From a virus: DNA of 33,180 nt. Positions 23,431-33,180 of this stretch are shown here, piece by piece (within the stretch, counting starts at the first letter, position 1; each line of letters starts with the position of its first letter). The DNA is taken from the IMG/VR virus record IMGVR_UViG_3300010296_000040, positions 1 through 33,180 of that record. The stretch is one strand, 5' to 3'. A program made the position numbers and the translations under genes. The notes under the pieces were generated by a model, which was given only the letters and a program-made list of their open reading frames with translations, was not told the DNA's origin and did no database searches.

Positions 23431-26400
23431 ATGGCGCCCAGAGTTTTTACTTACGACGAAACTCGAATCAATTACTTCGTTACCGACACCTTCGGAGACA
23501 TTACGGTGTCGGAAACGTCGTCGGAGGACTTTGGCAATATTACAGACGCCCATATTATTGAAGAAGACGAATTAGGTTTTAACCCAAATGATTACGGACT
23601 AGTAGTCTGGGTAGGCGACATACTTCCATTTGGATCAATGGGTACGATCCAAGATACTTTGGAAGAAAAAGTTGCCTTTGTACCAGCAGTATCGCATCTA
23701 CCCGTTCTCATACAGGGACAAGGAAAGATATCGCGTTCTCAGGCACCTTGGCAGGGGTCTGGCACCCTCTTCGAGATTGGAGGAGGTCTGGAGAGACTGG
23801 TTATACCAGACTTGGGTGCCGCAGGACCAGAACCAACCCTCAGCGGGGAAGCGGCCACAAGACAGACATTCACAGAAGTCGGATCTGGAAGTCTCACAGT
23901 CTCAGACGAGGCACAAACGGCGGAATTCAACATATATCCGTTCGTATCCAGAATTACACTCACCGTTTCAGGTGGAACTTCTCAAGAGTATCCAGATGAG
24001 TATATTGAAGCTCATCCTAACGAGGAAGTTCTCAACGGTACTGGAGATGAGAGTAGAACCTACGATTACTCCATCTTCTCAGGGACATTCGAAGAACAAG
24101 ACTTTGGTTCAATCTCTGTCAAACAAGGTGGCAACTTCTCCGAAGGTGGCACGACATTTGATAGTACGAATAGTTCTATCAATAGTTTCGCAGATGCCGA
24201 TCTTGTAGAGTCTGTTGATTACGGTCTACTTTCCGTAACCGACATTACGGAGATTGTTACCAGAATTATCACTACCAGTGATTTCGCTGCGTACAATCCC
24301 ACATACATTGGAACATTCCTTGCTCAGTCTGGGACAGGAATCGGTCAGGTCGGCGGATTTAATATTGGCGAACATATTAAATTCGGCAGCATCACCAATG
24401 GTAGATCCTTTGAGTGGGATGTAGATACTACCAACGCAACAAGCATTACCATCAGGGCAATCAGAGGTAATGATGCCAATGGTGGAGAAGATCCAGATAC
24501 TTCAAGCGAAAGTTTAGTTCTTGATAGATGGAACGGGACTTCTTGGGTAAGAATTAACACTGTCATTGCATATAATGACAATTCTTTCGATACCTTAAGA
24601 GACATCACCATTCCTCTGGATGCTGTACACAGAGGTCAATATACTTACAGAATTTATCAGGCTGTATCCAGTGGACCAACCTGGGATCACTACGGCGTAA
24701 CTCAGATCAGTTATGAAGTAGAACAGACTGTACCTATTCCTTCTGATGATTGGGGTGAGATTGTTGCCGATCAACGTTACGGTAAGATTAGTACCAAGGC
24801 GACTTACTCTGGTGCTCTTACCAGAGCATTTGAGAGATTTGAACACAGGTATATTGGAGAAAGTGCAACACTATCTCTCAGAGATGGTTTACTGCCAGAC
24901 GAAGAAAGAAAAGTCTTCGCATTCGAAGGTTCTGGTACTATCACTGCAGTTGGTCAACTTGGTCTTGGTCAGGCACCTCAACACACCGTATTTGGCGAAG
25001 AAGGTCAATTTACATTCGGTGGATCTGGTGCGGAAGCATTTGTACCACAAGGAATCGAGAGTTTTGGTCTTGTTCTTACTGGCGGTGCTGCTGCAGAAAG
25101 TATCATTTTCCAAGGCGAAGAAGAACGTGCAGAGTTCTTCTTCACTGGATTCTCCGAAGGACTCAAACTTACTCACTTCCCACCATCGGCAACAGCAGAA
25201 TTTGTTGTCAGTGGTGCTGCTACTGGGGTCAGACTAATCCAATCCTTCATTGGATCGGATCTCTTTACCATCAGTGGTCAACTTCTCGAAGATTATACTC
25301 CATTCTGGACATCTCCTACAGAACAAGATGGTTATGTAGAGCCATTAGATTGGGGATTCATCAGTCAGGTTCCAGATCCACAACCAAATGGATACGAGGA
25401 TTGGGGTCTGGTATCCAAGGTCGCATTTGCTGCCGACGATTGGAAGTATATCATTATCGGTTGGAGACCATTCAGAATTTACGGAGACGACGAAAGTATC
25501 TCTGGTCAAGACTCCTTCAGCAGAGCAAATTACCAGGGTGTCGGTACATTCTTCATGTCCGAACCTGCCGTCGAGGCAGTTGTATTTGATTACGAAACAT
25601 CTGGTATTACTGGCATTGCCACTTACAAGGCAGGCATCAACATCTTTGGTGCCAACTGGTTCAGTCAGGCTCCACAACATACCGTATTTGGTCTCGAAGG
25701 CAAATTCACTATCGGTGGATCTGGTGCAGAGTCCATTACTCCAGCAACAGAGTTTGGTTCTGGTTCCCTCTTTACCATTGGCGGCATTGCAGAGAGTTCT
25801 GCAGTTACGCCTCCTGCTGCAGGGGTCAAGTTCATCAGTGGTGCTGCAGATGTCAAACAATCTCCTGCACCATCCGCGTCTGGTCTCATCACTCTGCGTC
25901 AAGGTAGAGAAGAAGGTCAGACTTATCTTAGAATTATTGATACTGGCGAAAGTTCTGGTCTCTTTGGATTCGCTGGCGGAGCAACAGGCGAAAAACAGAC
26001 AGATTCTTACAACGAGTCTTCCATCTGGTATGGTCAAGAAAACGAAGACTTTGGTCTCCTCAGTGGCACACCAACCTTCGGATTCGATCTTGCACAGACA
26101 CCATCTCTGCCAACGTTCGACGGAACGTCCTCCGCCGAAAACTTCAGCACTAATAATGCAAGTATTGATTGGGGTGACATTGGTAATGGTGAAGGATCGA
26201 ACACCATTGGTGGACCAGATTACGATCAATATCTGTATCCATCCAATACTGGTTTCGTCGATCAAAGTATCGACAAAGGTTACGAAGATTATGGTTGGGT
26301 CAACGAAGAAGATTCTCAACCTACCAGATTCCCACTTTCTGTTGGTGTTGCACTCTCCTTCACCGAGGGAGCACTTGTCACCAGATTCATTCCAAATTTC

Positions 26401-28422
26401 CCTGGTTCTGGTTCAGCTCTCTTTACGATTTCCAGCGCGCTCGAATCGATTACTGTATTCGAACGTGCAGATGTTCCTCTTCTGCCACTTTCTGGTTCTG
26501 CAGAAGAAGCTTATTCTGCACAAACTCCAGAAAGAACCGTCACTATCCTTGTCGATGGTCAAAGTGCCGAGAGTATCACGATCACCGCCGACGAATTTGT
26601 TGGTGTTGGTATTGGAACTCTGTTCTCCTTCGGAGAACTTGTCGAGAGAGTCAGATTCGAAGAAGTTGGTATTGGATCTGCTACCTTTACTGGTGCTGGA
26701 GTCGAGAAGTTCATCTCGAATCCACCAGAAGGCACTCAACTCTTTACCCCATACGGATCTTACTCCGATCTCAGCGCAACCTTCTCTGAGGTTGCAACCA
26801 AGGCAACTCTCCGACTCTCTGGAGAACTGGTTCACCCATTCATCGATTACACTCCACACTACGGTATCGAAAGAAACATCGGTATCGAGACTGGATTCAC
26901 ATTATTCCCTGGTGGATCGGGCGGAGAATATGGAGATCCTGGTATTGTTACTACCAGATTTATTCCAAAATATCCAGCGTCTGGTGTTATTGGAATCAGT
27001 TCCAGAGCTATTTCCAGAACCAACGCTCCTATCATCACAGATGGTACGATCTACATTCTTGGTATTCATACCGCAGCTCAGGGTGTCAGTTCTGGCAGAG
27101 AAACTGGTGCTGGAGAAAGATTTATTCCAGCGTCTATCGATGCAGGTCCTGGTCTCTTCCTCTTCAAAGGAGATGCACCAAACAGACCAATTCAGGTCTA
27201 TGGTTATTATGGAGACGACAAGGATCCTGGTACATCTGGTCAGATTACCATCTCCACAGAAACCACACCAACTCTTTACAGAGAAATTACATCTGCGGCA
27301 GTTGGAATTGGTATTGGGACATTCTCTGGTTATATCACCGAGAGAAAATCCAAGGCCTACTCTGGATCTGGTTCTCTGTTCAAAACAGGTGGATCAGCGG
27401 AATCTATTCCAGTTCGTCCAGTCACATCTGGTACGATCTTTGTTTCGGGCGCATACGGTGCAGAGTACGCATACTCCGCACAAACCCCAGAAAATGTCAT
27501 CACTCTCACTCTCAGTGGAGTCGCTGACAAGGCAGTTCTCCTCACAACTGACTTTGGTGGCACTATCTTTGCATCTGGTGTTGCTGGAGAAAGTGCAACA
27601 TTCGACGAGATTGGATCTGGATCTCTCTTTGCGATTGGTGGAGGAGCGGAATCCGTTACTCCTGTTGTTTCTACATTCACTGTTCTTGTCAATGTTGGTG
27701 GTTCTGCAGACAGCAGAGAAATTGCTGTTTACGGTTACTACGGGGACGACAGAGATCCTGGTACTTCTGGAACAATTTCGATCGTTGGAGAACTTACTCA
27801 TCCAAACATCGACTTTACTCCAGCTGTCACTGGTGTTGGCCTGTTCAAAATCGATGGAACTGCAATTCCCAAGTTCCAACTTACTGCAGATGTTCTGGGT
27901 GGAAAGGCAACAATTTCTGGATCTGCAGAAGTATCCTTCACCTCGGGCGCTGGCGAGCAAACAATGCTCTTCAGAGTTCTTGGAAATGCAGATACTGCAC
28001 TCAATCAAGTCTTTGGATACTACGGAGACGACAAGGATCCTGGTACTTCTGGAACTCTCACGATTTCTGGCATTGGCGAAACGAGAGAAGTTCAAGTCTA
28101 TGGATACTACGGGGACGACAGAGATCCAGGCACATCTGGAAAAATTACTCTCTCTTCGACAACTCTGGTATTCCCATTTGTCGATTACACTCCATCCCCA
28201 GACGGTTCTGGTCTGTTCATCATTGGTGGTTCTGCCGACAAACGTCGCATATTCCCACCCGTCGATGGTCGCGGCGTTCTGTTCAAAATTGGAACAGCGC
28301 AAGAAGCTTATGCAAGAGCAACATATGTTGGAATTGGGAATGTCAGATACTCCTCCACTACTATTGCCTCTACACAACTCGTACAATTCGAAGAGGGTCG
28401 AGTATACGTTATTATCATTTAA
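23431..28422 (+). CDS. Giant repeat-mosaic fibre-like virion protein
   Basis: 1663 aa, RBS GAAGG at 23419-23423. Almost the whole protein is made of short beta repeats of several kinds. (a) G-S-G-x-L/F-F-x-I-G-G-x-A-E-S strands, many copies (GSGTLFEIGGGLER, GSGSLFTIGGIAES, GSGSLFAIGGGAES). (b) D-W/Y/F-G motifs (EDFGNIT, NDYGLVV, DDWGEIV, LDWGFIS, YEDWGLV, IDWGDIG, YEDYGWV). (c) Four copies of VYGYYGDDKDPGTSG. (d) Long-range duplicates such as APQHTVFGEEGQFTFGGSGA at residue 515 and APQHTVFGLEGKFTIGGSGA at 747. No enzyme motif is visible. Size, repeats and neighbours suggest a fibre or tail-surface protein. It has no clear promoter of its own; TATACATA at 23351 lies before the terminator and is doubtful. 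No TATAAATA box lies in the gap upstream. Confidence 0.72.
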   Translation: MAPRVFTYDETRINYFVTDTFGDITVSETSSEDFGNITDAHIIEEDELGFNPNDYGLVVWVGDILPFGSMGTIQDTLEEKVAFVPAVSHLPVLIQGQGKISRSQAPWQGSGTLFEIGGGLERLVIPDLGAAGPEPTLSGEAATRQTFTEVGSGSLTVSDEAQTAEFNIYPFVSRITLTVSGGTSQEYPDEYIEAHPNEEVLNGTGDESRTYDYSIFSGTFEEQDFGSISVKQGGNFSEGGTTFDSTNSSINSFADADLVESVDYGLLSVTDITEIVTRIITTSDFAAYNPTYIGTFLAQSGTGIGQVGGFNIGEHIKFGSITNGRSFEWDVDTTNATSITIRAIRGNDANGGEDPDTSSESLVLDRWNGTSWVRINTVIAYNDNSFDTLRDITIPLDAVHRGQYTYRIYQAVSSGPTWDHYGVTQISYEVEQTVPIPSDDWGEIVADQRYGKISTKATYSGALTRAFERFEHRYIGESATLSLRDGLLPDEERKVFAFEGSGTITAVGQLGLGQAPQHTVFGEEGQFTFGGSGAEAFVPQGIESFGLVLTGGAAAESIIFQGEEERAEFFFTGFSEGLKLTHFPPSATAEFVVSGAATGVRLIQSFIGSDLFTISGQLLEDYTPFWTSPTEQDGYVEPLDWGFISQVPDPQPNGYEDWGLVSKVAFAADDWKYIIIGWRPFRIYGDDESISGQDSFSRANYQGVGTFFMSEPAVEAVVFDYETSGITGIATYKAGINIFGANWFSQAPQHTVFGLEGKFTIGGSGAESITPATEFGSGSLFTIGGIAESSAVTPPAAGVKFISGAADVKQSPAPSASGLITLRQGREEGQTYLRIIDTGESSGLFGFAGGATGEKQTDSYNESSIWYGQENEDFGLLSGTPTFGFDLAQTPSLPTFDGTSSAENFSTNNASIDWGDIGNGEGSNTIGGPDYDQYLYPSNTGFVDQSIDKGYEDYGWVNEEDSQPTRFPLSVGVALSFTEGALVTRFIPNFPGSGSALFTISSALESITVFERADVPLLPLSGSAEEAYSAQTPERTVTILVDGQSAESITITADEFVGVGIGTLFSFGELVERVRFEEVGIGSATFTGAGVEKFISNPPEGTQLFTPYGSYSDLSATFSEVATKATLRLSGELVHPFIDYTPHYGIERNIGIETGFTLFPGGSGGEYGDPGIVTTRFIPKYPASGVIGISSRAISRTNAPIITDGTIYILGIHTAAQGVSSGRETGAGERFIPASIDAGPGLFLFKGDAPNRPIQVYGYYGDDKDPGTSGQITISTETTPTLYREITSAAVGIGIGTFSGYITERKSKAYSGSGSLFKTGGSAESIPVRPVTSGTIFVSGAYGAEYAYSAQTPENVITLTLSGVADKAVLLTTDFGGTIFASGVAGESATFDEIGSGSLFAIGGGAESVTPVVSTFTVLVNVGGSADSREIAVYGYYGDDRDPGTSGTISIVGELTHPNIDFTPAVTGVGLFKIDGTAIPKFQLTADVLGGKATISGSAEVSFTSGAGEQTMLFRVLGNADTALNQVFGYYGDDKDPGTSGTLTISGIGETREVQVYGYYGDDRDPGTSGKITLSSTTLVFPFVDYTPSPDGSGLFIIGGSADKRRIFPPVDGRGVLFKIGTAQEAYARATYVGIGNVRYSSTTIASTQLVQFEEGRVYVIII
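27196..28140 (+). repeat. Four copies of the VYGYYGDDxDPGTSG repeat
   Basis: 45-base in-frame copies at 27196-27240, 27727-27771, 28009-28053 and 28096-28140 (residues 1256, 1433, 1527 and 1556 of the 1663-aa protein). The consensus V-Y/F-GYYGDD-K/R-DPGTSG is invariant at 13 of 15 positions. The interval shrinks from 177 to 94 to 29 residues. Each copy is followed by a beta strand (QITIS, TISIV, TLTIS, KITLS). The Asp cluster could bind a cation; this is inference. Confidence 0.9.
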
Positions 28423-28484: not shown

Positions 28485-28943
28485 ATGACAAAGCAGGTAC
28501 AACTAAGAAAAGGCACTACTGCGGAGCACTTTAACTTCACAGGTGCCCTTGCAGAAGTAACTGTTGATACAGACAAGAATGTTGCTGTTGTACACGACGG
28601 TGTTACTCCAGGTGGTTTTGAATTGGCGAAGTCCAGATGGACGTTCGTTAATGGCCCATACAGTATGACAACTAACCAAAAGTATACTGTCGATTCACAA
28701 AACACTCCTGGTGGATATTCTCTCTCCATGCCCGAACCCCGCGCTGTCGGTGACTGGGTATGGGTAGAAGATTTTACTAATTTTTGGAGTATTAATCCAG
28801 TTTCTATTACTTCGAATTATTCATTTGAAAATGGCCATTTGGTTAGGGAGAGTTCTCCTCTGATTCTGGATGTGTCAGGTGCATCTGTAAGTTTAATTTG
28901 GACTGGATCTCTTTGGAAAATCTTCAACAATAGAGGAAGTTAA
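28485..28943 (+). CDS. Mtd-N / gp10-domain tail fibre protein
   Basis: 152 aa. Residues 4-47 (QVQLRKGTTAEHFNFTGALA, EVTVDTDKNVAVVHDGVTPG) match the N-terminal domain family named after the Bordetella phage major tropism determinant (Q-x-R-x-G-T ... F-x-G-x-x-G-E-x-x-x-D ... L-x-V-H-D-G). That domain is a common attachment module at the start of tail fibres. Residues about 65-150 (YTVDSQNTPGGYSLSMPEP, FTNFWSINPVSITSNYS, SVSLIWTGSLWKIFNN) align by eye with the second domain of T4 gp10 (YAINTSSGRVTINLP, VFATWNVNPVTLVAAS, DLELVYCAPGRWEYVKN). So it appears to be an attachment module joined to a gp10-like beta domain. The late promoter is upstream and the next gene starts 2 bases after its stop. 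Confidence 0.8.
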   Translation: MTKQVQLRKGTTAEHFNFTGALAEVTVDTDKNVAVVHDGVTPGGFELAKSRWTFVNGPYSMTTNQKYTVDSQNTPGGYSLSMPEPRAVGDWVWVEDFTNFWSINPVSITSNYSFENGHLVRESSPLILDVSGASVSLIWTGSLWKIFNNRGS

Positions 28944-28945
28944 AC

Positions 28946-29350
28946 ATGGCATTAACCCTAAGTAATTCGATTTCTGGTGAGTTTTTACCATCAGAATCCT
29001 CAGGTTTTTTCGTATATGCTCTGAGAAGAGACGCGGAAAACATGCTGTATTTCTCCAAGGTTAGTGCTGCTTCCACTGAACTCGGAGAATTCTATCGCGC
29101 TAATGGTACTGCTATCCCAGAATTTGGTGATGGTATTGACTATGGCACATACGATGTTGGCGTTGGAAAAACGTCGGTCATTCGAAATGATATTGCTACC
29201 GAAAAGAAAGCTTTAGATGATCCGAATGATAAATACCAACAGATCCGTTTTGACCGCAGAAATTTATATTATTACATAGACGACGATGGATTCTTCGTCA
29301 TTAGGTTCAACGGACCAGATTATGATTACAACTCTATCGGACCCAAATAA
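28946..29350 (+). CDS. Small virion-region protein of unknown function
   Basis: 134 aa. RBS AGAGGAAG lies at the end of the preceding gene, 6 bases before the ATG. I do not recognise a named domain. It is a soluble, mixed-charge protein: ESSGFFVYALRRDAENMLYF near residue 20, a Gly/Tyr-rich middle (FGDGIDYGTYDVGVGKTSVI), and an acidic-aromatic C-terminus (LYYYIDDDGFFVIRFNGPDY). There is no signal peptide, membrane segment or coiled coil. It sits between two fibre genes in the same tight operon with good RBSs on both sides, so an accessory or chaperone-like role for the fibres, or a small structural role, is plausible but unproven. Confidence 0.65.
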   Translation: MALTLSNSISGEFLPSESSGFFVYALRRDAENMLYFSKVSAASTELGEFYRANGTAIPEFGDGIDYGTYDVGVGKTSVIRNDIATEKKALDDPNDKYQQIRFDRRNLYYYIDDDGFFVIRFNGPDYDYNSIGPK

Positions 29351-29368: not shown

Positions 29369-32300
29369 ATGGCTGAGTTTAGACTTGGAAGAGTAAAATT
29401 CAACTGGACTGGCGATTGGCAGCCATCCAAATCCTACTTGATTGATGATATCGTCAAGTTCGGTGGTAACTCCTACGTTGCCGTCGCTAACCACACATCC
29501 ACTGCGAGCACTGCGAATTTCTATTCGACGGATCTTAGCAACTGGAATGTTCACCTTGAAGGCATCAATTCCAGAGGGAATTGGATGTCTGGTGAATACT
29601 ATCGTGTTAACGATGTAGTAAGGTTCGGAAACATCCAGTATAGAGTTACTACTGCCCACACATCCGAAGGAACATTCGTTGACCTCACTAAGGTCACTGA
29701 ATATGTTGCTGGATTCAATGCAGAGGGCGAGTGGAACATCGATACACCATATCAAACTGGTGACGTTGTTAACTACAACGGTTCTTCTTACGTTGCCCTT
29801 ACGACATCTCTTGCAGGATTTTCTCCTCCACAGAACGTTGCTATCGGTACAGATACTGAAGGCAAGACATGGCAAATTCTTGCAGATGGTATCGCTGGAG
29901 CCGCAAATACCTACTCTGAGGGAACATACTTCAGAGGACAGCTTGTACAATATGGTGGCGACATCTTCCGTCACAAGTTAGGTATTACGACCAACATTGC
30001 ACCTCTTTCTACTGGTAACACACAAGGTGTTGGTATTGGTGCCTCTGTTTGGGATCTCCTGGTTAAAGGTTTCAACTTTGTTGGTAACTTCTCTACAACG
30101 TTTGCGTACCATCCTGGTCACGTTGTAAGATACGGTTCGAACTCCTACGTTTCTGTTGGTAACTCCTTTACTAACGTTATTCCTACTGCTGGTCTCGGAA
30201 CATATTGGGAAACTCTTGCTGCTGGAGACAGCTCTGCTGTTCTGGTAAGTAAGGGTGATATCCTCACTTATAACTCTGGTCCTTTCAGAATTGGTATTGG
30301 TTCCACTGGTTACGCTCTTGCAGTTGGTGGAAACGGACTTCCTGGTTACGAAATCGTTGGTGCTCAAACCCGAGTTTACTATTGCGACTCCGAGTCTGGA
30401 CACGACACAAACAACGGTCTTGCACCTAACCTGGCATTTAAGACAATTAAGAGGGCTTGTGCCGCTGCACGTCCTCAAACACCTATTACAGGATTTAATT
30501 ACACTGCCGCAACTGGTGTTGCAACCATTACTGCTCCTGGTCACGGACTGCAAAACACTGGTACGTTCGTTCAGTTAGAAGGCGTAGAATTTGAATGTCT
30601 CTCTGGTGGTAATGTCTTCACCGTACTGGGTATGCAGTACAACAAGACAGTTGGTCTCGCAACCATCACCGCTATCGGACTGGGTAATGCACCCGAAGTC
30701 GGTATCGGCACACTTGTTAGAATTAGAAATCTTCAAGTTCAGTACACTGGTGATGCAAGATTTGAGCACCAATTCCGAAGTGCTTTAAGTGGCGCAGTTG
30801 TCACTGGTGGTGACTATAATCACACATTTATTGCTGCAAACCCTGGTGCAATCACCTGTGTCCAAGGATCTCTCGCAGGTTCGACATTCACCCCAACAAA
30901 CGCACAATATACCCCAACTTCGGGCGAAATCATCTTTACTGTTGGTAATCACGGTCTTTCGATCGCTGATACGATCAGCATCGATACCAACTCATTGACC
31001 TTCACTTGTGCGATGGATGGCAATAATGCCAATAAGACATATCCTCGTGCAACTGACCCTGCTGCTGGTGCGACTCTCGCAGTTACTTCAATTACCCAAA
31101 ATACCTTCACGGTAAACGTTGGTGCATCTCCACTCGTTGCTTATGACGTATCGGATGCAACTTATAATCACCTGACTGGTGCTATGACATTGGATATTGG
31201 TGCTCACCAACTTCCTGCCAACACCTCCATCAAACTGGCAAACAACAGTTTGACCTTCCGTTGTGCAATGGACGGTTATCTGACCGACCACTCCTATCCT
31301 CGTGCAACGGATCCTTACTACGATACTGCGATCAATATCACATCGGTTACTCCAACCACAATTACTGTTAACATCGGTGTTGCATCCAGCAACACAACCA
31401 TCACAGGTAACTTCCCATCTGTCCACACTCCTGGTCAGTTCCAGTTCCCTGTTCAAGGTATCCCCGATGCCAACTCGGTCATTCTGAACGTTGGTCAATC
31501 TGCAACTGATTACCTCTACGTTCAGGCTGGTACAGCATTCGTTGGACTGACAACCACTGTTTATCCCGATAAGGCTTCTAAGTCCTACTTCGAAGTTCTT
31601 GAGGTTCCCGATGTTAATACTTTCAGAGTTAACATTGGTGTTTCTACGATCAACCACACTTATGTACAGGGTGGTCTGCTGACTGACCTGACGCCTGCTA
31701 TTCTGAGACTCTCTGCTTCTCAGTTCTATGAGCAACTCCCAATTGTTGTTCCTCCATTCACTTCGATTGTTGGACATACTCTGAGAGGTACTCAGGTTCT
31801 TCCTGCCGCTGGGTTCTCTGATGATGGCGTCACGCCAAACAACAGATCGACCATGTTCAAACTGTCTGACGCAACTACCGTACAGGCACTGGCGTTCAAG
31901 GGAATGGAAGGTTTCCATTATGATCCTAACGCTCCTCTGGAGATGGACAATACCAACCTCAGAACTGGTATTGGTACAACTGCCGCAGGTATCTTCTTCG
32001 CACTGAACCCCAACTCCCCAATTAACAACAAGTCGCCTTACGTTAAGGATTGTACGACTTTCTCGGATCCCGCAACTGAAAGTGGCAGATTCGGTGGTGG
32101 TGGTGTTGGCGTCTTCATCGACGGTGGTGTCCACAGCGAAGGTGCAAAATCGATGGTCTTCGACGCCTTCACGCAGGTCAACTCTGACGGTGCTGGATTC
32201 CTCCTTGATAAGAGTGCAATCGCTGAGATCGTCTCCTGCTTCACCTACTACGCTAAGTGGGGTTACTACTCTGGTGGCGGTGCGAGAATCCGTGCTGTTG

Positions 32301-33180
32301 GTGGTAACAACTCTTATGGTGATTACGGTGTCATCTCTTCTGGTTTCGCATCTGACGAAGTTGCAAGATCTGCAAGACTGTTCGGTGATCTGATGACCAT
32401 TCTCGGAACAACAGTTTCGGGTACAGTATCAATTGGTGACACCCTTACTGGTCAAGTCTCTGGCGCACAGGGATGGTTGATCAATGACCAGAAGTCCGCT
32501 GATAAGTATTACTTCAAGTATCATCCTGGTTATGGTGCTACCGCAACTGCTGAAAACGGCAACGTTGCAATCGGTACTTCTCCATTCGTAGATGGTGAAC
32601 TTGTATATGCTTACAGTGACACCTCGGGCGCTGGTTATGCTGGTTCCTTCAACGTTGCAGCTGCAACATCCTCTGTTTCTGGTCAGAAGGGTACAATCCT
32701 TGAGATTGATGGATTTGATTCCGTTCCTCTCGTAGGTGACGCAATCGGATTCACCACCAGCTTTGGTGAAGATAGCCTGTTCTACATTGTCAATACGGTT
32801 ACTAACGTCGCGACCGCAGTAACTTACTATGATACCGTTGGAATGGCACACACCTACTATAACCGCGCTACTCTGACAATCTCGCCAGAGAAGGGTAAGG
32901 CAACCCCTGACACCCGTAACGTCACGGGCGCAGGTTCTACCATCACTGTTAGAACAAGATTCTCTCAGGTCCGCCTGACGGGTCACGACTTCCTGAGTGT
33001 TGGTACTGGTAACAAGGTCGAAACCAACTATCCCGATGTTGACGAAACTCAAATCATTCAGGGTAATGAGACCAATACATTCGGTCCTGGTAAGGTGTTC
33101 TTCGTCTCCACTGACCAAGGTGGTAACTTCAGAGTTGGTCAATTCTTCTCCGTTGACCAGTTGACTGGTCGTGCAACCCT
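29369..33180 (+). CDS. Long tail fibre with chitin-binding-like repeats and beta-helix (3' end off window)
   Basis: 1270 codons are visible, open to the window end. Residues 15-300 hold five or six tandem carbohydrate-binding-like modules of the CBM5/12 type (G-x-W ... Y-x-x-x-D-x-V-x-x-G-x-x-Y): GDWQPSKSYLIDDIVKFGG, GNWMSGEYYRVNDVVRFG (70), GEWNIDTPYQTGDVVNYNG (120), a divergent copy near 184 and GNFSTTFAYHPGHVVRYG (239). At 335, RVYYCDSESGHDTNNG then AFKTIKRACAAA is the usual start of a right-handed pectate-lyase-like beta-helix. Coil-like Gly/Asn-rich sequence resumes after about 780 (IVGHTLRGTQVLP, GGGVGVFIDGG, YGDYGVISSGF). Between them are HGL modules and a tandem duplication. This architecture suggests a host-surface polysaccharide-binding fibre. 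No catalytic residues were assigned. C-ending codons are frequent, suggesting high expression. Confidence 0.82.
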   Translation, partial: MAEFRLGRVKFNWTGDWQPSKSYLIDDIVKFGGNSYVAVANHTSTASTANFYSTDLSNWNVHLEGINSRGNWMSGEYYRVNDVVRFGNIQYRVTTAHTSEGTFVDLTKVTEYVAGFNAEGEWNIDTPYQTGDVVNYNGSSYVALTTSLAGFSPPQNVAIGTDTEGKTWQILADGIAGAANTYSEGTYFRGQLVQYGGDIFRHKLGITTNIAPLSTGNTQGVGIGASVWDLLVKGFNFVGNFSTTFAYHPGHVVRYGSNSYVSVGNSFTNVIPTAGLGTYWETLAAGDSSAVLVSKGDILTYNSGPFRIGIGSTGYALAVGGNGLPGYEIVGAQTRVYYCDSESGHDTNNGLAPNLAFKTIKRACAAARPQTPITGFNYTAATGVATITAPGHGLQNTGTFVQLEGVEFECLSGGNVFTVLGMQYNKTVGLATITAIGLGNAPEVGIGTLVRIRNLQVQYTGDARFEHQFRSALSGAVVTGGDYNHTFIAANPGAITCVQGSLAGSTFTPTNAQYTPTSGEIIFTVGNHGLSIADTISIDTNSLTFTCAMDGNNANKTYPRATDPAAGATLAVTSITQNTFTVNVGASPLVAYDVSDATYNHLTGAMTLDIGAHQLPANTSIKLANNSLTFRCAMDGYLTDHSYPRATDPYYDTAINITSVTPTTITVNIGVASSNTTITGNFPSVHTPGQFQFPVQGIPDANSVILNVGQSATDYLYVQAGTAFVGLTTTVYPDKASKSYFEVLEVPDVNTFRVNIGVSTINHTYVQGGLLTDLTPAILRLSASQFYEQLPIVVPPFTSIVGHTLRGTQVLPAAGFSDDGVTPNNRSTMFKLSDATTVQALAFKGMEGFHYDPNAPLEMDNTNLRTGIGTTAAGIFFALNPNSPINNKSPYVKDCTTFSDPATESGRFGGGGVGVFIDGGVHSEGAKSMVFDAFTQVNSDGAGFLLDKSAIAEIVSCFTYYAKWGYYSGGGARIRAVGGNNSYGDYGVISSGFASDEVARSARLFGDLMTILGTTVSGTVSIGDTLTGQVSGAQGWLINDQKSADKYYFKYHPGYGATATAENGNVAIGTSPFVDGELVYAYSDTSGAGYAGSFNVAAATSSVSGQKGTILEIDGFDSVPLVGDAIGFTTSFGEDSLFYIVNTVTNVATAVTYYDTVGMAHTYYNRATLTISPEKGKATPDTRNVTGAGSTITVRTRFSQVRLTGHDFLSVGTGNKVETNYPDVDETQIIQGNETNTFGPGKVFFVSTDQGGNFRVGQFFSVDQLTGRAT
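29411..30290 (+). repeat. Tandem CBM5/12-like modules in the fibre N-terminus
   Basis: Units start near residues 15, 70, 120, about 180 and 239, with a weak sixth near 291. Each has a leading G-x-W/F, a Tyr, a D/H-x-V turn and a Y/N-G-x-x-Y strand. The spacing of about 50-65 residues matches the usual CBM5/12 length. Confidence 0.75.
30899..31378 (+). repeat. 85-residue tandem duplication in the fibre
   Basis: Unit 1 (30899-31123) and unit 2 (31154-31378) are in frame and offset by exactly 255 bases. Each ends in a 45-codon block with NSLTF-x-CAMDG, YPRATDP and TVN-V/I-G at identical positions. Upstream parts also align (NAQYTPTSGEIIFTVGNHGL with DATYNHLTGAMTLDIGAHQL). DNA has diverged mainly at synonymous and surface positions. 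Confidence 0.9.

Follow-up and report, generated by a model that had tools for sequence, protein, structure and literature searches.

What do several copies of a domain that resembles carbohydrate-binding modules (CBM) of families 5 and 12 do at the very beginning of a phage tail fibre? The question is raised by a stretch of 33,180 nucleotides of viral DNA, positions 1 to 33,180 of IMG/VR record IMGVR_UViG_3300010296_000040 (hereafter the window), in which an open reading frame (ORF) at 29369..33178, on the plus strand like every feature written with two dots below, encodes 1270 amino acids (aa) of a tail fibre and is truncated by the window end, its 3' end lying beyond. A preliminary description had read this gene as the tail fibre of a cyanophage with five or six tandem CBM5/12-like modules ahead of a beta-helix, and had proposed that the modules contact host polysaccharide or chitin. 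We find five such modules, the fourth of them degenerate, in which the CBM5 aromatic pair is missing, and we consider it rather probable that, as a chain or as an articulated joint, they dock the N-terminus of the fibre, itself probably trimeric, to the virion.

The identity of the gene as such is well supported. PHROGs assigns the ORF to phrog_9851 (tail fiber protein, E-value 9e-273), and the top annotated relatives align over all 1270 residues (Synechococcus phage Sf-FS3 at 71% identity, Synechococcus phage S-SSM7 and cyanophage S-SSM6a at 67%), in agreement with the preliminary description. By sequence, the fibre belongs to a family already named in annotated cyanophages, and the family itself is not new. 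At the nucleotide level, bases 1 to 25,000 of the window resemble the same three phages, albeit along no more than some 5% of the query; the window may fairly be read as DNA of a T4-like cyanophage. A complete homologue (L039) comprises 1475 residues and is identical to the window fibre in 1249 of 1270 residues, and hence the window fibre lacks about 205 C-terminal residues.

A search with the Pfam profile PF02839 (CBM_5_12), proposed as a check at the outset, displays a match to the fibre ORF with an E-value of 7.1e-18 (64.8 bits against a cut-off of 26.2 bits) in three stretches; over the whole record three places exceed 26.2 bits, every one of them inside this ORF. An independent profile, built from modules of S-BM3 and the contig L047 and holding no window sequences, scores modules 1–5 at 53.2, 31.4, 36.7, 8.6 and 27.4 bits, while the best of 200 shuffles reaches 4.7 bits (169 of the 200 gave some match at the loose limit used). 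Behind the leader MAEFRLGRVK (aa 1–10, 29369..29398), iterated profiles place module 1 at aa 11–65 (29399..29563), module 2 at aa 68–115 (29570..29713), module 3 at aa 116–174 (29714..29890), module 4 at aa 181–234 (29909..30070) and module 5 at aa 235–286 (30071..30226). The independent profile gives residues 11–65, 69–115, 116–147, 186–234 and 235–286. The first three modules stand above the Pfam cut-off, and a phmmer alignment also joins module 3 to the chitin-binding domain of ChiA1. A phmmer query with module 5 alone returned nothing useful. Five modules thus stand, and the sixth that had been considered does not, since residues 287–331 are without a match by Pfam or by the module profiles. 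A run of Tandem Repeats Finder (TRF) over the window gave no repeats at the level of DNA, which suggests that the module copies are probably old.

Modelling of residues 1–337 with AlphaFold2 (AF2) displays strands in each module, with a mean pLDDT of 79.1 and values of 79–92 for most ten-residue blocks within modules; given a pTM of 0.53, the folds of the modules are usable and their arrangement is not. Structural comparison by VIA matches the modules to 1wvv, 2d49, 2rts and 1ed7 at middling Z scores of 5.0–7.4. Many chitinases and chitin deacetylases occur in the same list at Z scores comparable to those of phage proteins, and hence the structural match alone does not decide between a role in sugar binding and a role in the virion.

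CBM5 domains are described as binding by means of an adjacent pair of aromatics (Y-W or W-W; Y282-W283 in CjCBM5) together with a third, less conserved one, and as having another Tyr and Trp, apart from this pair, as core residues (PMC8449059). Alignment of four solved domains (CBM5 in three cases, CBM12 in one) with the module profile places the CBM5 pair at positions 30–31. The modules compared were drawn from 115 distinct proteins, remaining from 146 once proteins shorter than 280 residues had been set aside and any that agreed throughout their first 330 residues had been counted as one. Among 561 distinct modules, Trp, Phe or Tyr occurs at position 30 in none and at position 31 in none; if His is included, five of the 561 have one at either position. 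The core aromatics are kept (position 7 in 560/560, 13 in 561/561, 26 in 558/561 and 46 in 510/552 modules). In the window fibre, the pair is missing in all five modules.

The CBM12 domain of ChiA1 reportedly relies on Trp687 and Gln679. What we take to be Trp687 was placed on the ChiA1 letters from the sequence, the number being that of a reference title. The corresponding module position 38, placed by extension in view of a ChiA1 alignment that ends one residue earlier, is aromatic in 99 of 555 modules. These aromatics are concentrated in module 2, where the 93 five-module proteins have Phe in 77 and Trp in 4 cases. In the window, this place is taken by Phe103 of module 2; Phe151 of module 3 stands opposite Trp687 in a different alignment, that of phmmer to 1ed7, and modules 4 and 5 have no aromatic of the CBM12 type either. 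With the CBM5 pair gone from all modules examined and one or two window modules still carrying a CBM12-like aromatic, the loss of binding aromatics, which the preliminary description had named as what would refute it, is extensive but incomplete. The modules accordingly resemble the ChiA1 chitin-binding domain and the CBM5 domains of chitinases in fold and core aromatics, and differ from them in the absent pair and in a Trp687 that seems replaced or lost. A PF02839 match can earn phage genes a carbohydrate-binding label, which may mislead, to judge from this case: the fold persists, whereas none of the modules examined has the CBM5 pair.

These data weaken the original proposal, here taken as multivalent weak glycan binding in which the five modules would grip host polysaccharide or particle chitin. 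The profile match, sequence matches to ChiA1 and to modules of chitin deacetylases, and the state of module 2 in five-module proteins (Phe or Trp at the Trp687-like place in 81/93, the His of HTS in 79/93) may all be cited for it. The missing pair, the loss of the CBM12-type aromatic from window modules 4 and 5, and the location of the modules at the extreme N-terminus argue against it. In Anabaena phage A-1(L), moreover, the distal carbohydrate-binding module of the neck fibre gp80 is described as not having bound the host (PMC10966104). The distribution of the modules is also contrary to a cyanobacterial target: 50 phage records match the module at E-values up to 0.01, among them those of Synechococcus, Prochlorococcus and Pelagibacter phages and, as more distant matches, those of phages infecting Gordonia, Pseudomonas, Aeromonas, Rhodococcus, Tunturiibacter and others. 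Both Pelagibacter phage HTVC024P (L056) and an uncultured phage (L062) have a protein, of 269 or 263 residues, that is matched from its residue 1 onward and is encoded beside an annotated tail fibre gene. Modules in phages of SAR11 and other hosts make a cyanobacterial polysaccharide an improbable common target. Sugar binding is a weak reading of the sequences, and we regard it as unlikely; the modules may well have ceased to bind sugars, with one or two of them as conceivable exceptions.

Position and the structures of other phages favour the virion side. The best VIA match of the module model falls on module 5 and is to residues 135–184 of 8kec_a, a chain of the A-1(L) tail fibre (Z 7.8, root-mean-square deviation (rmsd) 1.1 over 49 residues, 29% identity). 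The module profile finds residues 139–180 of A-1(L) gp33 at 15.3 bits and is without a match in gp34; as the residue numbers agree, the chain is presumably gp33, the short tail fibre. The joint domain of gp33 (residues 111–215) is reported to bind the wedge periphery and thereby anchor the fibre tightly (PMC10966104). This homologous module is what gp33 has in common with the window fibre, whereas it carries one copy instead of five, and its beta-ring, stem and CBD domains differ by description. Further matches are found in residues 75–119 of the tail fibre chain 9rkv_O of phage 7-7-1 (Z 6.1), whose long fibre is described as anchored to the baseplate by its region 1–120 (PMC12796354), and in the Milano baseplate chain P1 (Z 6.5). 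The head subdomain D2 of CBA120 TSP1 also matches (Z 4.0). It has been characterized as chitin-binding-domain-like in a paper which states that polysaccharide binding by tailspike heads had never been reported (PMC3966878), and the D1-D2 head of TSP1 is said to bind TSP4 in ultracentrifugation (PMC8825819). TSP1 D2 hence offers a like fold within a docking head; it differs in the weakness of the match, in its single copy and in having D1 ahead of it. A chitin-binding-like insertion domain of the T4 capsid protein is likewise described as bridging adjacent molecules (PMC3185693).

The location of the module region relative to the fibre is highly uniform. The first module begins at residue 11 in 114 of the 115 proteins, and a leader of one pattern is present in all 115. 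This constancy of leader and module 1 is in part due to selection, because every one of the three scans for relatives included one or more patterns that overlap module 1 or the end of the leader (one of the scans kept 80 of 538 relatives), and because relatives other than phage records were gathered by N-terminal queries, so that they contain modules by construction. The number of modules per protein is five in 93 cases, six in one (Mosig) and seven in 21, and modules 3–5 are more divergent than module 1. Variable copy number behind a constant leader, together with this divergence, could be taken to mean that the modules are a passive spacer which only determines how long the base of the fibre is and how it bends, while the leader or another protein does the docking.

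Against such a spacer speak proteins in which there is nothing to be spaced. In S-BM3, the entire protein of 297 residues consists of the module region, and nine contigs (L114–L122) encode module proteins of 297–299 residues, giving ten loci with eight distinct sequences. We had considered that the S-BM3 protein might be the product of a broken gene; this was rejected in view of the nine further contigs with a version of 297–299 residues, a similar C-terminus and a separate start of the next ORF. At all ten loci, the next ORF starts with a similar beginning of its own. The module region would therefore appear to be self-contained and able to exist without a beta-helix, and such proteins, with no fibre behind the modules, need a role other than spacing. 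Since the joint of A-1(L) that holds the homologous module is also described as touching the wedges (PMC10966104), we judge a purely passive role quite improbable.

A candidate for the other side of a docking contact lies immediately upstream. The window contains a gene pair of the T4-GC_295/296 type, in which a gene for 134 aa (28946..29350; T4-GC_295 type, phrog_8997) ends 18 bases before the fibre. A relative of this partner gene is found in 22 of 23 phage records in which at least 80% of the module region is covered, the exception being Pelagibacter phage Mosig; as several phages were recorded more than once, the number of distinct phages behind the 23 records is about eleven. Where a contig extends 700 bases or more upstream, the gene is present in 110 of 132 cases, redundant contigs included. 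The partner protein has no Pfam match, and a sequence search of the PDB was unconvincing (best E-value 0.27). Together with the fibre modules, it forms a candidate binding pair that is open to direct test.

Taken together, the lost binding residues, the profile homology to the gp33 joint, the N-terminal position and the linkage to the partner gene argue for a docking chain. We hypothesize that the CBM5/12 fold was retained while its sugar-binding face was largely lost and re-employed for protein-protein contacts. Attachment of the fibre to the virion, presumably at the baseplate and perhaps via the upstream protein of 134 aa, would be the task of the leader and the first modules. The other modules would form a short spacer with joints, while the beta-helix and the C-terminal parts would point outward.

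Several observations weigh against this proposal. Z scores of 4–8 for modules of 45–50 residues are middling on VIA's own scale, and the matches to phage chains mostly cover a single module instead of five in a row. The AF2 model, a monomer of low pTM, gives no arrangement of the modules. Phe103 occupies a place at which a CBM12 domain would have its tryptophan. All 22 contigs that lack a partner gene within the upstream stretch searched are of the seven-module type (L047 and 21 of the L133–L155 group) and, together with Mosig, suggest that the partner is not obligatory. The literature searched yielded no virion structure of this fibre and no binding assay for it. Finally, the C-terminal 98 or so residues of L039 resemble baseplate-side proteins, so that the polarity of the fibre is not beyond doubt.

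This last point would agree with a fibre mounted in reverse, its C-terminal gp10/gp9-like domain on the virion side and its modules distal. Over its last 98 residues, L039 matches residues 78–177 of CBA120 TSP4 (Z 17.0, rmsd 1.5, 29% identity; E-value 6.6e-9 by sequence). TSP4 78–177 is the XD1 domain as judged by linker positions, and such domains are described as occurring in baseplate-side proteins (PMC8825819). The L039-type tip is, however, restricted to 41 of the 87 distinct module-bearing proteins that are complete, nearly all of them gathered via N-terminal queries (42 of 126 if proteins cut by contig or locus ends are counted), which indicates that one module region is combined with differing C-termini. 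The matching modules of A-1(L), 7-7-1 and CBA120, moreover, are virion-proximal according to the reports cited. We hence regard a reversed fibre as very improbable. The segment concerned (L039 residues 1378–1475, L039:10132-10425) corresponds to sequence past the window end and resembles, more weakly than XD1, also T4 gp10 and gp9.

If the modules do dock the fibre, a further generalization may be entertained, which we hold to be possible yet doubtful: a sugar-binding fold would have been converted outright into a docking chain of phages, with five to seven copies as an adjustable plug whose usual socket is the partner of about 130 residues. In some phages the plug would be a separate protein of 297–299 residues, fibres would be exchangeable, and the same plug would be common to cyanobacterial and SAR11 phages. 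Reading CBM-like domains as virion connectors would alter the search for host-range determinants in marine phages.

The order of modules before a beta-helix, as originally described, is borne out by the predicted fold of L039, in which the helix is interrupted by an insertion of about 400 residues. The model of L039 residues 296–1475 is a parallel beta-helix (mean pLDDT 74.8, pTM 0.49). It matches the Pam1 tailspike 7eea (VIA Z 18.9, rmsd 5.1 over 253 residues) and displays many matches of the pectate-lyase type over approximately residues 332–1261, single-domain lyases falling on 780–1246. As modelled on this near-identical homologue, the window fibre has the right-handed parallel beta-helix fold of tailspikes. 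With approximate boundaries throughout, the first part of the helix extends over about aa 332–375 (30362..30493; model residue 37 is where many VIA ranges start), the insertion over about aa 376–779 (30494..31705) and the main part over about aa 780–1246 (31706..33106; model residues 485–951 in the pectate-lyase-type matches). The insertion is strongly variable or absent among relatives; it has repeats in common with phrog_3442, phrog_701 and other structural families of cyanophages.

Among known phages, the tail fibre-like protein of S-SSM7 (T4-GC_1335), that of Sf-FS3 and phrog_9851 resemble the window in full-length homology and gene order, while their sequences diverge, most of all in the insertion. 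The tail fiber protein T4-GC_296 of P-SSM2 and its counterparts in S-CAM1 and S-CAM3 have the leader, the five modules, the upstream gene of the T4-GC_295 type and the core of the beta-helix in common with the window; insertion and C-terminal tip differ. Cluster 296 is unmentioned in the main text of a virion proteomics study whose analysis covered S-SM1 (PMC3037559).

Some further observations concern the surroundings of the fibre genes. In S-SSM7, the fibre gene is followed by six short ORFs (L050:19486-23533), five of them of 219–267 residues, which may encode fibre tip proteins and which precede a carbamoyltransferase gene and sugar-related genes. The related phage S-SCSM2R carries a very large gene annotated as 'large exoprotein' (L156:22018-27737) two genes past the shared tail genes, at a position near that of the window fibre genes. 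In the window, the gene directly upstream of the partner gene encodes a tail protein of 152 aa with an Mtd_N domain (28485..28943; PF18454, E-value 1.6e-12; phrog_9648). A protein of 1663 residues encoded at 23431-28422 contains eight motifs of the D[YFW]G type and has the motif YGYYGDD[KR]DPGTSG three times, at its residues 1257, 1434 and 1557.

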